From Ralstonia soli (GTDB lineage Bacteria; Pseudomonadota; Gammaproteobacteria; Burkholderiales; Burkholderiaceae): a stretch of 64,000 nt of DNA. Shown in pieces: positions 23,394-29,415 of this stretch (position 1 is its first letter; each line of letters starts with the position of its first letter). Made by a program: the position numbers and the translations under genes. The stretch spans positions 1 to 64,000 of the forward strand of contig NZ_JAMXHT010000004.1 of the NCBI RefSeq assembly GCF_023955655.1. Direction: 5' to 3'. The notes under the pieces are model-generated. The model searched no databases, was not told where the DNA came from, and worked only from the letters and a program-made list of their open reading frames with translations.

Positions 23394-25637
23394 ATGGAGA
23401 ACAAGACCGACCGGCCGGCCGAGGGGGCCGCAACGACGGCAGAGCAGGGCGCTAACGGTTCACTGGTTGCCCAGGCGATCGAATACCTCGCGGCCAATGC
23501 CGCTGGCAACGTTACGCTGACCGGCGAGCCGCTGGAGTCGCACGCACGCGGCACAATTGCCATTCTCGAAGGGCTGCGCGTTGATACGCCCTCGCTGCAG
23601 GCGGCTGCGTTGTTTCTGCTGCCCACGCTGGCGATGGACAACGAAAAGGCACTCGAGCCCGCGTTCGGCGCCGAGGTGGTCAAGCTCGTGCACGACGTGC
23701 GCCAGCTGCTGCGCATCGGAGCGATTGCGGGGCTCGTCAGCCCAACGGATGCTGGCGTCACCCGCAAGAACGAAGCCGAGGCACGTCGCGCCCAGGTCGA
23801 GGCGCTGCGCAAGATGTTGCTCGCGTTTGCGCAGGACATTCGCGTGGTGCTGATCCGCCTGGCGTCGCGGCTGCAGTCGCTGCGCTGGCTCGCGCAGACC
23901 AAGCGCGCAGCGCCCGAAGGCATGGCGCGCGAGACGCTCGACATCTACGCGCCGCTGGCCAACCGCCTGGGCATCTGGCAACTGAAGTGGGAGCTGGAAG
24001 ACCTCGGTTTCCGCTTTGAAGACCCCGACACCTACAAGCGCATCGCGCGCCTGCTCGACGAAAAGCGTATCGAGCGAGAAAAGTTCATCGGCGAGGCCAT
24101 CGCCCAATTGCAGAAGACGCTGCACGACGCCGGCATCCATGCCGAGGTGAGCGGCCGGCCCAAGCACATCTACAGCATCTGGAAAAAGATGCGCGGCAAG
24201 GAGCTCGACTTCGCCGATCTGTACGATGTGCGCGCCTTCCGCGTCATCGTTGACGACATCAAGGATTGCTATACCGTGCTCGGCTTCGTGCACCACATGT
24301 GGCAGCCGATCCCGAAGGAGTTCGACGACTACATCTCGCGTCCCAAGGCCAACGGCTACATGTCGCTGCACACCGTGGTGATCGGCGACGATGGCCGCGC
24401 GCTGGAGGTGCAGATCCGCACGCGCGAGATGCACCACTTTGCCGAGTACGGCGTGGCCGCGCACTGGCGCTACAAGGAGGCCGGCAGCAAGGGCTACGCC
24501 GGCCAGTTTTCCGCCAGCGAGCGCTACGACGAGAAGATCGCCTGGCTGCGTCAACTGCTCGCCTGGAAGGATGAAGCCGAGCACACCGTCGCGCACGAGG
24601 ATTCGCCTTGGGAGCAACTCAAGCACACCGAGCTGGACGATCACATCTACGTGCTGACACCGCAGGCGCGCGTCATCGCCTTGCCGCAGGGCGCCACACC
24701 GGTCGACTTCGCCTATTACCTGCACAGCGATCTTGGCCACCGCTGCCGTGGCGCGCGCGTCGACGGCGCAATGGTGCCGCTGAACACGCCGCTCAAGAAC
24801 GGACAGACGGCGGAGATCGTCACGGTCAAGCAGGGCGGGCCATCACGCGATTGGCTGAACCCCGAGCTGCACTATCTGGCAAGCCCGCGTGCCCGTGCAA
24901 AAGTGCGAGCATGGTTCAACGCGCTTGAATTGGAAGAAACGCTGGCCCAGGGCCGTGCGCTCATCGACAAGACACTTCAGCGCGAAGGCAAGACGGCCGT
25001 CAATCTGGAGGACCTGGCCGCCAAGCTTGGCTTCAAGTCATCGGACGATTTGTACGCCGTTGTCGCCAAGGACGAACTCAGCCTGCGCCGTGTCGAGGCC
25101 GTGCTGCGCTCGGACGGCGCGCCGCCCGCGCAGCAGGTGGATGAAGAAGCGTCGATCACCAAGAAGAGCAAGGCCACCAGCGTCGCCCGCGGTGCCAAGA
25201 GCGGCGTGCTGGTAGTGGGTGTCGATTCGTTGCTCACCCAGATGTCACGCTGCTGCAAGCCCGCGCCGCCGGATCCGATCGTCGGGTTTGTCACGCGCGG
25301 GCGCGGTGTGTCGATCCATCGGCAAAGCTGCGCGACGTTTCAGCAGTTGGCTGCCCGCGCGCCGGGTCGCGTGATCCAGACGGAGTGGGGGCAGCGCAGC
25401 GATTCGGTCTATCCGATCGACATCCAGGTCGAGGCGCTCGACCGCCAGGGCCTGCTGCGCGACATCTCGGAAATCCTCTCGCGCGAGAAGATCAACGTGA
25501 CGGGCGTGCGTACGCTTTCAAGCAAGGGCGTCGCCAAAATGCAGTTCACGGCGGAGGTGGCGGAGGCGACACAACTGCAGCGCGCGCTGACTTTGATCGA
25601 AGAAGTGCAAGGGGTGTTGACAGCCAGGCGCAAGTGA
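23394..25637 (+). CDS. relA: (p)ppGpp synthetase RelA, synthesis-only type
   Basis: 747 residues. The N-terminal region aligns with the HD hydrolase domain but lacks the HD metal-binding residues (SHARGTIAILEGL, FLLPTLAMDNE), so hydrolysis should be dead. The synthetase domain contains RPKHIYSIWKKM near 258, the EFDD motif (E309-D312) that marks monofunctional RelA rather than the basic RxKD of bifunctional enzymes, and ALEVQIRTREMHHFAEYGVA near 338. A TGS domain (YVLTPQARVIALPQGATPVD) lies near 420 and a C-terminal ACT domain in the last 80 residues. It makes ppGpp on ribosomes under amino-acid starvation. It lies just ahead of tRNA-Val and the thrS attenuator. Confidence 0.95.
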   Translation: MENKTDRPAEGAATTAEQGANGSLVAQAIEYLAANAAGNVTLTGEPLESHARGTIAILEGLRVDTPSLQAAALFLLPTLAMDNEKALEPAFGAEVVKLVHDVRQLLRIGAIAGLVSPTDAGVTRKNEAEARRAQVEALRKMLLAFAQDIRVVLIRLASRLQSLRWLAQTKRAAPEGMARETLDIYAPLANRLGIWQLKWELEDLGFRFEDPDTYKRIARLLDEKRIEREKFIGEAIAQLQKTLHDAGIHAEVSGRPKHIYSIWKKMRGKELDFADLYDVRAFRVIVDDIKDCYTVLGFVHHMWQPIPKEFDDYISRPKANGYMSLHTVVIGDDGRALEVQIRTREMHHFAEYGVAAHWRYKEAGSKGYAGQFSASERYDEKIAWLRQLLAWKDEAEHTVAHEDSPWEQLKHTELDDHIYVLTPQARVIALPQGATPVDFAYYLHSDLGHRCRGARVDGAMVPLNTPLKNGQTAEIVTVKQGGPSRDWLNPELHYLASPRARAKVRAWFNALELEETLAQGRALIDKTLQREGKTAVNLEDLAAKLGFKSSDDLYAVVAKDELSLRRVEAVLRSDGAPPAQQVDEEASITKKSKATSVARGAKSGVLVVGVDSLLTQMSRCCKPAPPDPIVGFVTRGRGVSIHRQSCATFQQLAARAPGRVIQTEWGQRSDSVYPIDIQVEALDRQGLLRDISEILSREKINVTGVRTLSSKGVAKMQFTAEVAEATQLQRALTLIEEVQGVLTARRK

Positions 25638-25659
25638 CGGTATAGTCTTGTTCTTCGGC

Positions 25660-25736
25660 AGGCTCGTAGCTCAGCTGGTTAGAGCACCACCTTGACATGG
25701 TGGGGGTCGTTGGTTCGAGTCCAATCGAGCCTACCA
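25660..25736 (+). tRNA. tRNA-Val (anticodon GAC)
   Basis: A cloverleaf of 77 nt: acceptor AGGCTCG / CGAGCCT with discriminator A and encoded CCA, D-arm GCTCAGCTGGTTAGAGC, anticodon arm CCACC-TTGACAT-GGTGG (GAC), T-arm TTGGTTCGAGTCCAA. It decodes GTC/GTT. It lies 22 bp after relA and about 75 bp before the thrS leader. Confidence 0.96.
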
Positions 25737-25821
25737 ACGCATTTTTCAGGGCGCGTCGGGTAGGATGTCCAAGCCGTCATCCCTCGGGTTTGTCCCGTAC
25801 AACTGAAGTCAAGGGCAAAAC

Positions 25822-25866
25822 ATGATTCAAGCACCGCGAACTACAACCGCTTCGGAGCGACAGTAG
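25822..25866 (+). CDS. thrS leader peptide with three consecutive Thr codons
   Basis: A 14-codon reading frame encoding MIQAPRTTTASERQ. Three adjacent threonine codons ACT-ACA-ACC (25840-25848) include two codons that are rare in this GC-rich genome. A Shine-Dalgarno-like AAGGG lies six bases before the ATG. It lies in a gene-free 368-bp stretch upstream of threonyl-tRNA synthetase and immediately precedes a terminator hairpin. A regulatory peptide that senses charged tRNA-Thr by ribosome stalling is inferred. Coding for a functional product is unlikely. Confidence 0.75.
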   Translation: MIQAPRTTTASERQ

Positions 25867-25921
25867 TCAAGGTGCGGTTTTCGCCCTTTGTGCTCTGCCC
25901 AAGCGGTAGTCAGCGCAAAAG

Positions 25922-25950
25922 AAAACGCGGCCTTGGCCGCGTTTTTTTTT
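25922..25950 (+). terminator. Attenuator terminator upstream of thrS
   Basis: AAAACGCGGCC-TT-GGCCGCGTTTT followed by five further T residues: a near-perfect 11-bp stem with a T-run, 155 bp before the thrS start. The gap to thrS (25951-26104) contains the ribosome binding site AGGAG and no other obvious element. Confidence 0.92.
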
Positions 25951-26104: not shown

Positions 26105-28012
26105 ATGATCGCAATCACCCTGCCGGACGGTTCCCGGCGCGAGTTTCCCGGCCCGGTGACGGTGGCTGAAGTGGCACAAAGCATCGGCGCGGGTCTCGCC
26201 AAGGCCGCGCTGGCCGGCCGCGTGGACGGCCAGATGGTCGACACCAGCTACACGATCGATCGCGACGCCAAGCTTGCCATCATCACCGACAAGGATGCCG
26301 ATGGTGTCGACGTGATCCGCCACTCGACGGCCCACTTGCTGGCCTACGCCGTCAAGGAGTTGTATCCGGACGCGCAGGTCACGATCGGCCCGGTCATCGA
26401 TAACGGTTTCTACTACGACTTCGCCTACAAGCGTCCCTTCACGCCAGAGGACCTTGTTGCCATCGAAAAGAAGATGGCCGAGCTCGCCAAGAAAGACGAA
26501 AAGGTCACGCGCGAAGTCTGGAACCGCGACGACGCCGTCAAGCTGTTCCAGGGCATGGGCGAGAAGTACAAGGCTGAGATCATCGCCTCCATTCCGGAAG
26601 ATCAGGAAATCGGCCTGTATCGCGAAGGCAATTTCGTTGACCTGTGCCGTGGCCCGCACGTGCCGTCCACCGGCAAGCTGAAGGTCTTCAAGCTGATGAA
26701 GGTGGCTGGCGCCTACTGGCGCGGCGATCACAACAACGAGATGCTCCAGCGCATCTACGGCACGGCCTGGGCCAAAAAGGAAGACCAGGAAGCCTATCTG
26801 CACATGCTAGAGGAGGCCGAAAAGCGCGACCACCGCAAGCTGGGTCGCGAACTCGATCTGTTCCACATCGACGAAACCGCCCCCGGCATGGTGTTCTGGC
26901 ACCCCAAGGGTTGGACGCTGTGGCAGGAAGTCGAGCAGTACATGCGCCGCGTGTACCGTGAAAACGGCTACCAGGAAGTGAAGGGGCCGCAGATTCTCGA
27001 CAAGTCGCTGTGGGAGAAGACCGGCCACTGGGACAAGTACCGCGAGAACATGTTCATCACGGAATCGGAAAAGCGCGAATACGCGCTCAAGCCGATGAAC
27101 TGCCCCGGCCACATCCTGATCTACAAGCAGGGCATCAAGAGCTACCGCGATCTGCCGCTGCGCTTCGGCGAGTTCGGTGCCTGCCACCGCAACGAGCCCT
27201 CGGGTGGCCTGCACGGCATCATGCGCGTGCGCGGCTTTACGCAGGACGATGGTCACATCTTCTGTACGGAAGACATGATCCAGGCCGAAGTGACGGCGTT
27301 CACGACGCTGCTGCAGAAGGTCTACAAGGATTTCGGTTTTACCGAGATTCTCTACAAGCTGTCGACGCGCCCGGAAAAGCGCATCGGCACGGAAGAAAGC
27401 TGGGATCGCGCCGAAGCCGCGCTGGCCGAGGGCCTGCGTGCCTCTGGCTGCGAATTCGAATACCTGCCGGGCGAAGGTGCGTTTTACGGTCCGAAGATCG
27501 AATACGTGCTGAAAGATGCACTTGGACGCCAGTGGCAGTGCGGGACGATCCAGGTCGACCCGAACCTGCCGGAGCGTCTGGACGCCGAGTTTGTGGGCGA
27601 AGATGGTGCGCGCCATCGCCCGATCATGTTGCACCGGGCCATCGTGGGTAGCCTGGAGCGCTTTATCGGTATCTTGATCGAGCAATACGCCGGTGCGCTG
27701 CCGACGTGGCTTTCGCCGGTGCAGGTCGCGGTGCTCAGCATCACCGATTCGCACGCCGAATACGCACAATCCGTTGCGCAATCCCTGCAAAAACAAGGAT
27801 TTAGGGCGGTCGTCGATTTGCGGAATGAGAAGATTGGGTATAAAATCCGCGAGCATTCCGTCCAGAAGGTCCCTTACCAGGTTGTGGTGGGCGACAAAGA
27901 ACGGGATGAAAATCAGGTGGCCGTGCGTGCCCGTGGCAACGTCGATCTAGGCTCCATGCCGGTGTCGGCGTTCGTTGAGCGACTGCAGAACGATCTCGCC
28001 AACAAGTCATGA
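26105..28012 (+). CDS. thrS: Threonyl-tRNA synthetase
   Basis: 635 residues from the ATG at 26105 ([16 protein letters not shown]), with AGGAG eight bases upstream. It has a TGS domain (1-61), the editing domain with [20 protein letters not shown] near 74, a class II catalytic core with [13 protein letters not shown] near 333 (zinc ligand Cys), [26 protein letters not shown] near 358, and an anticodon-binding domain at the end ([18 protein letters not shown]). It charges tRNA-Thr. First gene of thrS-infC-rpmI-rplT-pheST; the upstream Thr-rich leader peptide predicts attenuation by threonine supply. Confidence 0.98.
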
Positions 28013-28054: not shown

Positions 28055-28576
28055 ATCGCTACTGAGAAATCTCACCGCATCAACCGCGAGATCAGCGCAC
28101 CGGAAATCCGGCTGACCGGGGTTGAGGGAGAAGCGCTCGGCATCGTCAAACTGTTCGACGCATTGCGTCTGGCAGAAGAAAAAGACGTCGACCTGGTCGA
28201 GATCGCACCGACTGCGCAGCCGCCCGTCTGCCGCCTGATGGACTATGGCAAGTTCAAGTATCAGGAACAGAAGAAGGCCCACGAGGCCAAGCTGAAGCAG
28301 AAGGTCATCCAGGTGAAGGAAGTCAAATTCCGCCCGGGTACCGACGACAACGACTACGACGTCAAGCTGCGAAACGCGACGCGCTTCCTGGAGGATGGTG
28401 ACAGGGTAAAGGTTACCTTGCGTTTCCGCGGCCGCGAAATGGCTCACCAGGAAATCGGCATGCGCATGCTGGAGCGTATCAAGACTGACCTGGAGGAATT
28501 CGGTCAGGTTGAGCAGATGCCGAAGATGGAAGGTCGCCAGGCAGTGATGATGTTGGCACCCAAGAAGAAAAAGTAA
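28055..28576 (+). CDS. infC: Translation initiation factor IF-3, ATC start codon
   Basis: No ATG precedes the conserved N-terminus; the first ATG in frame (28163) would remove about 36 residues of the N-domain. The family sequence [21 protein letters not shown] begins directly after an ATC at 28055, with GAGG eight bases upstream, giving 173 residues. The N-domain ([25 protein letters not shown]) and the C-domain ([38 protein letters not shown]) are complete. IF-3 normally rejects AUC/AUU starts, so this codon gives negative autoregulation, as shown for AUU in E. coli infC. Confidence 0.93.
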
Positions 28577-29326: not shown

Positions 29327-29386
29327 GTTGGATTGGCCGGGCAGGCCGCTGGAATTGCCCAGTAAGTTTGCCGGCTGATCACCCTG

Positions 29387-29415
29387 ACGGGGCTCTCACC
29401 GAGCCCCGTTTTTTA
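29387..29415 (+). terminator. Intrinsic terminator between rplT and pheS
   Basis: ACGGGGCTC-TCACC-GAGCCCCGT followed by TTTTTTA, 36 bp before the pheS start. No Phe-rich leader frame is found in the 124-bp gap, unlike pheM of E. coli, so partial readthrough or a separate promoter must supply pheST. Confidence 0.9.

Follow-up and report, generated by a model that had tools for sequence, protein, structure and literature searches.

Leader-peptide attenuators are well known from the thrABC, trp, and his operons of E. coli and from pheST. The gene of threonyl-tRNA synthetase (ThrRS), thrS, is subject to translational repression in E. coli, where ThrRS acts at a tRNA-like operator, and to T-box control in Firmicutes, where tRNA charging is sensed and a terminator is switched. 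Attenuation of thrS by a leader peptide has not been recognized in any description from β-proteobacteria in the PMC papers searched; a prediction may exist from 2010, when Lopatovskaya et al. (Mol Biol 44:128) reportedly treated the attenuation of amino acid and aminoacyl-tRNA operons in a study that might hold one for thrS. The principle of leader-peptide attenuation is set out in PMC1183508. For Burkholderia cenocepacia, PMC5688073 describes 82 short 5′ UTRs arising from processing or attenuation, two of which are found at tRNA synthetases (BCAL3373 and BCAL3436).

Here, we consider the region ahead of thrS in a 64,000-nucleotide stretch of DNA from Ralstonia soli (the window, with coordinates counted from its first base), whose ThrRS is 98–99% identical to those of two named Ralstonia genomes. 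This region is very probably a ribosome-mediated transcription attenuator for thrS within a transcript led by tRNA-Val(GAC). It would represent a third way of matching ThrRS to threonine supply, beside the autoregulation of E. coli and the T-box.

Organization of the relA–thrS interval

The interval bears, in this order and on the forward strand, a sigma-70-like promoter, tRNA-Val(GAC), a leader ORF, a leader hairpin, a second hairpin, and a terminator. The promoter match (TTGACA-18-TATAGT, 25617..25646, 11/12 matches) overlaps the 3′ end of relA and is the one sigma-70-like site found in the promoter scan, compared with 0.1 expected from shuffles. The tRNA gene (25660..25736), recognized by ARAGORN and by the Rfam tRNA family, would be the first gene of the transcript; a search of the host assembly revealed no other full-length match to it. 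The leader ORF lies in the 3′ trailer of this tRNA. It is preceded by a Shine–Dalgarno-like AAGGG (25811..25815), begins with ATG at 25822, and ends with TAG at 25864–25866, so that the whole frame occupies 25822..25866. Its 14 codons (ATG ATT CAA GCA CCG CGA ACT ACA ACC GCT TCG GAG CGA CAG; peptide MIQAPRTTTASERQ) include ACT ACA ACC in succession, and Thr-rich frames are found before thrS in many β-proteobacteria. A sequence-only reading of the window had pointed out this threonine frame with its AAGGG ribosome binding site (RBS), which the sequence bears out; tRNA-Val(GAC), its sigma-70 match, and a hairpin between rplT and pheS were absent from that reading.

The segment 25811–25950 folds with a minimum free energy of −59.7 kcal/mol (z −4.88), and none of 200 dinucleotide shuffles was equally stable. 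The leader hairpin (regions 1:2, 25811–25888) spans the RBS and the codons of the leader and has stems of 11, 5, 2+4, and 4 bp; it comes from the RNA fold and has no covariation support. It is followed on the forward strand by the second hairpin (25889..25917), which is nested within the antiterminator, and by the intrinsic terminator (regions 3:4, 25918..25950), whose 14-bp stem (25918–25949) contains one G-U pair and runs into a U run. The terminator is absent from a simple terminator scan, its basis being the RNA fold and the scan of homologous loci. Region 2 (25868–25882, CAAGGTGCGGTTTTC) has two alternative partners: one is within the leader hairpin, and the other is region 3 (25921–25935, GAAAACGCGGCCTTG), which overlaps the 5′ arm and the loop of the terminator. 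As judged by pairing overlap and by the swap tests described below, the antiterminator formed by regions 2 and 3 is mutually exclusive both with the terminator and with the 1:2 hairpin. Folding thus recovers the leader hairpin and the terminator of the sequence-only reading, as well as the antiterminator pairing, which extends beyond the 25873–25882/25921–25929 proposed there.

The thrS gene (26105..28012, forward strand; Pfam tRNA-synt_2b, HGTP_anticodon, tRNA_SAD, and TGS) starts 154 nt downstream of the terminator. The long 5′ UTR left after the terminator would suit translational, protein-mediated autoregulation of the kind known for E. coli thrS, with ThrRS bound to a tRNA-like operator and the leader of secondary importance. 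Such a mechanism is extremely unlikely here, as it leaves the Thr codons unexplained; moreover, only tRNA families reached the Rfam gathering score in the window and 11 other loci, with the reservation that Rfam may lack such an operator. A T-box or any other Rfam element was rejected on the same scan, in which weak matches to rnk_pseudo (29.1 bits, gathering 55) and Leu_leader (23.2, gathering 50) were taken as chance.

The leader in close and distant relatives

A DNA search over 150 genomes of the family gave matches in 48, namely the host, 13 others of its genus, and 34 further genomes, in many of which the match is confined to the terminator or a short core. Thirty family loci were fetched; thrS is present in 29 of them, with tRNA-Val upstream of it in 28. 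All 29 thrS-bearing loci retain at least three leader Thr codons, so that the loss in close relatives by which the sequence-only reading would have been refuted was not seen; this count is biased because the loci were selected by similarity to the region itself and so show variation rather than frequency, sampling by thrS being the unbiased test. The leader frame reaches the same stop in 25 of the 29, and in four loci (L021, L024, L026, and L028) it stops earlier, still with five Thr codons (MNMTTRTTTAG). In L017, the leader reads MMVMTPRTTTAFERQ, and terminator and thrS are present, with no tRNA in the fetched stretch upstream of the leader. The sequence upstream of the L017 leader is different, as though a rearrangement had occurred in which leader and thrS stayed together.

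The best 80 of 585 thrS loci by ThrRS similarity (the named set) were fetched without reference to the leader. Since the top ThrRS similarities are kept, this set leans to near relatives, and at least four of its loci are repeats (L031, L032, L038, and L041 equal L014, L006, L022, and L023). Among these best 80 of 585, a Thr-rich leader followed by a terminator is seen in Ralstonia, Cupriavidus, Burkholderia, Paraburkholderia, Caballeronia, Acidovorax, and Comamonas, and also in Roseateles, Achromobacter, Bordetella, Janthinobacterium, Rugamonas, and Paenalcaligenes, among others. Examples of the leaders are MTPRTLTETTSERR, MTPRTTSEMLTGR, MFFPPARTTTRNFRPMSR, MTPRTTTKLWE, and MVMTPRTTTTTPTRV.

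Under a rule requiring three Thr within six codons and an ORF no longer than 40 codons, a Thr-rich mini-ORF precedes thrS in 43 of these best 80 of 585 loci (raw count), compared with 6.2 ± 2.4 in shuffles. Relatedness inflates mini-ORF counts, for which the other amino acids serve as the control; under the same rule, most of them are near the shuffles in the best 80 of 585, Val being raised less than Glu (17 vs 11.4) and Arg lying below (26 vs 37.4). An order-level ThrRS search gave a match in 197/200 genomes, and 60 loci from 33 families were hand-picked from the order-level matches (the order-wide set; one locus, L152, is only 278 nt long). Here, Thr-rich mini-ORFs are found before thrS in 24/60, compared with 2.8 ± 1.4 in shuffles, and 20 of the 24 were accepted by eye; the same rule gives 11 vs 5.2 for Phe. 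The raw counts include spurious ORFs, e.g., in L033 and L035 of the named set and in L118, L135, L148, and L152 of the order-wide set. Deep lineages of the order-wide set carry leaders such as MFRTCTTTWC, MFRTSTTTQS, MFKRTTTTRISR, and MNTNTTRTTTTRHT.

Glu-rich mini-ORFs upstream of thrS also exceed the shuffles in both sets (12/80 vs 2.1 in the best 80 of 585, and 4/60 vs 0.8 in the order-wide set).

A search anchored on Arg-Thr followed by T, L, F, S, R, or C returned leaders in 48 of the 80 named loci (best 80 of 585), five of them judged spurious, and no leader in the other 32. Conservation of the Arg and the first Thr is not evidence, because the regular expression requires them. The codon analysis covered 71 loci and 47 distinct leaders; L017, L036, L043, L053, L081, and L095 were dropped by hand, although L053 and L081 may be real leaders, and L017, dropped because the stretch picked was the wrong one, was restored for the pairing and ribosome models. 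The second Thr codon, two after the Arg, encodes Thr in 35 of the 47 distinct leaders (ACG 12, ACA 9, ACT 7, and ACC 7), and the base diversity at the three positions of this codon is 0.33, 0.37, and 0.72. Such synonymous drift is as expected if threonine is what matters and, together with the RBS, suggests that the leader is translated.

It might be supposed that the Arg-Thr core (CGAACT) is kept as an RNA motif or for peptide arrest and not for threonine sensing. Arg-Thr is indeed the best conserved codon pair, though it is also the search anchor, and leaders of some lineages have one or two Thr codons only (MGFRTCMPDSMHRF, MTPRTSSADLQSIR, MLVMTPRTSSEKLAGR). This supposition is unlikely, given that the places of the extra Thr codons vary among leaders (RTLTETT, RTTTTTPT, TNTTRTTTTRHT) and that third codon positions drift. 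As a separate observation, Arg-Thr (CGA ACT) is also kept in leaders with a short Thr run, e.g., in MFRTCSLALYC and MGFRTCMPDSMHRF, in a search that partly selected for Arg.

Other lineages among the named thrS loci (best 80 of 585) have no recognizable leader ahead of thrS. In a Polaromonas MAG (L048), about 110–165 bases before thrS, there is an apparently decayed leader with the terminator kept: the conserved GGTTATGACACCGCGAACT reads GGCTATAACACCGCGAATT, where ATG has become ATA and the start codon is gone. Three Limnohabitans-like loci (L033, L035, and L036) bear a terminator-like hairpin within about 100 bases before thrS without a leader ORF, and a TAAAAT-like sequence lies just upstream of this hairpin.

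Alternative pairings of the leader RNA

Terminators follow the leaders in homologous loci, as found by scanning the thrS upstream regions of the named and order-wide sets; in three leader-bearing loci (L069, L070, and L074), no terminator was found by the script. The 2:3 pairing is lineage-matched, its two strands shifting jointly from CAAGG/CCUUG in Ralstonia to CGAGG/CCUCG in Burkholderia, GUCGAGG/CCUCGAC in Pandoraea, CUAGUC/GGCUAG in Janthinobacterium, and GUUCGCGC/GCGCGGAC in Acidovorax. In a partner-swap test, the energy of a locus's own 2:3 pairing beats that of mismatched partners, both for 23 hand-chosen representatives (P 0.003) and with one per lineage (n = 14, P 0.005); with region 2 fixed, the corresponding values are P 0.002 and 0.007. 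Segments 1:2 and 2:3 share at least 6 nt in 21 of the 23 representatives, and the 1:2 hairpin gave no partner-swap signal (P 0.61 and 0.79). In single loci, the 2:3 pairing compared with shuffles is weak (10/58 at p ≤ 0.05, mean z −0.84), with Cupriavidus near or above 0. Classical covariation is absent: the covarying stems that the sequence-only reading had proposed to look for did not appear in the Ralstonia/Cupriavidus family alignment, where RNAalifold gave 23 predicted pairs, none with a compensatory change. In L017, the terminator loop is changed, and part of the 2:3 pairing is lost.

The effect of a ribosome on these pairings was modeled on the nascent RNA of the same 23 hand-chosen representatives, with the ribosome on the Thr codons (stalled), at the stop codon (released), or absent. 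The modeled pairing of region 3 with upstream sequence has a mean of 0.73 with a stalled ribosome, 0.54 with a released one, and 0.46 with none. It is higher for the stalled than for the released ribosome in 16/23 representatives and higher than without a ribosome in 19/23; on going from released to stalled, no rise is predicted in 7/23, two of which fall. The claim that thrS is preceded by a Thr leader peptide and a terminator/antiterminator switch has thus gained comparative support far beyond the close relatives.

The attenuator may be pictured as follows. RNA polymerase would start just upstream of tRNA-Val and transcribe the tRNA and then the leader ORF in its trailer. When Thr-tRNA is plentiful, the ribosome would reach the leader stop and cover region 2, the terminator at 25918–25950 would form, and the product upon termination would be approximately a tRNA precursor. 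When Thr-tRNA is scarce, the ribosome would stall on ACT-ACA-ACC, leaving region 2 free to pair with region 3; the terminator would then be blocked, and polymerase would continue into thrS and probably into infC-rpmI-rplT. If the leader is untranslated, the 1:2 hairpin would form and termination would be favored. In this way, we infer, the attenuator would respond to threonine by ribosome stalling and readthrough.

The probable tRNA-led transcript and its downstream genes

Transcription probably begins ahead of tRNA-Val, a point absent from the sequence-only reading. The TTGACA-18-TATAGT sequence stands just upstream of tRNA-Val in 14/14 distinct loci of the same genus (16 rows, two of them repeats). 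Table 2 of PMC9045368 gives a C. metallidurans transcription start site (TSS) with TTGCACGCGA and GTTATACTTG, assigned to Rmet_R0015 and labeled thrS. This promoter occurs in three of 60 genomes of the genus (one only 54% complete), and in all three, it is followed by tRNA-Val from about +7, then by the leader MSKTTRTTTAG, and then by the terminator. Sequence matching suggests that, in C. metallidurans, the published start labeled thrS precedes tRNA-Val by about 6 nt, and Rmet_R0015 is probably this tRNA-Val. Further thrS starts are possible, since the table of PMC9045368 lists only 48 selected promoters.

In ten order-level loci from seven families (17 examined), the leader ATG follows the tRNA 3′ end after 17–29 nt, too short a spacer to accommodate a promoter; in four of the ten, the leader carries no more than one or two Thr codons. 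The spacer is 32–33 nt in three Cupriavidus loci. The lack of promoter room between tRNA and leader in deep lineages, together with the published TSS, makes a shared transcript of tRNA-Val and thrS well supported. A promoter between the tRNA (or position −420) and the leader was rejected as a general rule (2/69, about the shuffle level), and the tRNA-less loci gave none that could be identified. A promoter between the leader stop and thrS was likewise rejected as a general rule, promoter-like sites being found in 1/68 distinct intervals vs 2.2 expected.

This scarcity bears on another explanation, namely that the hairpin and U run are the terminator of tRNA-Val only (with a trailer sRNA), thrS having its own promoter downstream and the leader ORF being incidental. 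The 154 nt between terminator and thrS would accommodate such a promoter, and the selective table of PMC9045368 allows for another thrS start; however, the C. metallidurans thrS start that it lists is upstream of the tRNA, and the Thr-rich frame persists with synonymous change, also where no tRNA is found, all of which makes this explanation very unlikely. The leader is retained before thrS, with no tRNA found upstream, in L017 and in many loci of Comamonadaceae and Alcaligenaceae and, therefore, is not merely a tRNA trailer.

Upstream of the leader and thrS in L062, L067, and L068 (Janthinobacterium, Rugamonas), tRNA-Val(GAC) is present in two copies. Among the 58 matching records of the plasmid collection, the 20 listed align to the query solely within its tRNA part.

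The class-level set comprised 29 of 73 other matched genomes, taken by best ThrRS scores and belonging to other gammaproteobacterial orders. In these orders, tRNA-Val is found within 420 nt upstream of thrS in 21/29 (one with odd coordinates), and a Thr-rich ORF under the three-Thr rule in 2/29, neither of them arranged as leader and terminator. One simple history would be that leader and terminator arose in β-proteobacteria inside an older tRNA-Val–thrS unit; the tRNA would then have been lost, and the leader retained, in many Comamonadaceae and Alcaligenaceae.

It can be suggested, as a serious though tentative possibility, that in many β-proteobacteria, the tRNA gene is an obligatory first cistron of a leader-peptide attenuator, which doubles as the tRNA terminator. 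The leader ORF would then be the trailer of tRNA-Val(GAC), with the RBS no more than about 20 nt from the CCA end in deep lineages. If so, each round of tRNA-Val synthesis would sample the Thr-tRNA supply, tRNA 3′-end maturation and leader translation might compete on the nascent RNA, and tRNA output, processing, and synthetase dosage would be linked.

Downstream of thrS, also on the forward strand, lie infC (IF3, 28055..28576; Pfam IF3_N/IF3_C, scanned from 28094), rpmI (L35, 28744..28941; named by the sequence and position of the frame), and rplT (L20, 28970..29326; Pfam). No ATG, GTG, or TTG start of infC was found in the expected place, and the frame points to ATC at 28055–28057, comparable to the AUU start, likewise unusual, of E. 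coli infC. A terminator-like hairpin with a T run, found by the terminator scan, lies between rplT and pheS (29386..29410, to 29414 including the T run) and may insulate pheST in part from the thrS unit. Table 2 of PMC9045368 gives separate starts for infC and rpmI in C. metallidurans. In view of the hairpin before pheS and these separate starts, control can be claimed with less certainty for the full operon than for thrS, and the operon-wide tuning, possibly as far as pheST, that the sequence-only reading envisaged is the weaker part of its proposal. Under this arrangement, transcription of a valine tRNA would be coupled to the expression of an essential synthetase and, probably, of IF3 and two ribosomal proteins. 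Existing RNA-seq data of many genera allow an immediate test of a leader that is translated from a tRNA trailer.

We regard the thrS attenuator as real and widely conserved; its proposed mechanism is classical, the tRNA-led unit is unusual, and it is undescribed for thrS in the papers searched. Other gammaproteobacterial orders share the tRNA-Val–thrS gene pair, whereas the arrangement of leader and terminator was not found in their 29 loci under the three-Thr rule. Like the attenuators of thrABC, trp, his, and pheST, the thrS leader combines a short ORF rich in cognate codons, 1:2, 2:3, and 3:4 pairings, and an intrinsic terminator before the genes; unlike them, it would regulate thrS, it is located, in many lineages, within the 3′ trailer of tRNA-Val, and its region matches only tRNA families in Rfam. 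With E. coli thrS, it shares the gene and the downstream synteny thrS-infC-rpmI-rplT, but control in E. coli is translational, through an operator bound by ThrRS, while a transcriptional switch read by the ribosome is proposed here. Finally, like the T-box, the proposed thrS leader would sense the charging state of tRNA and switch a terminator, but the sensing would proceed through the codons of a translated ORF.
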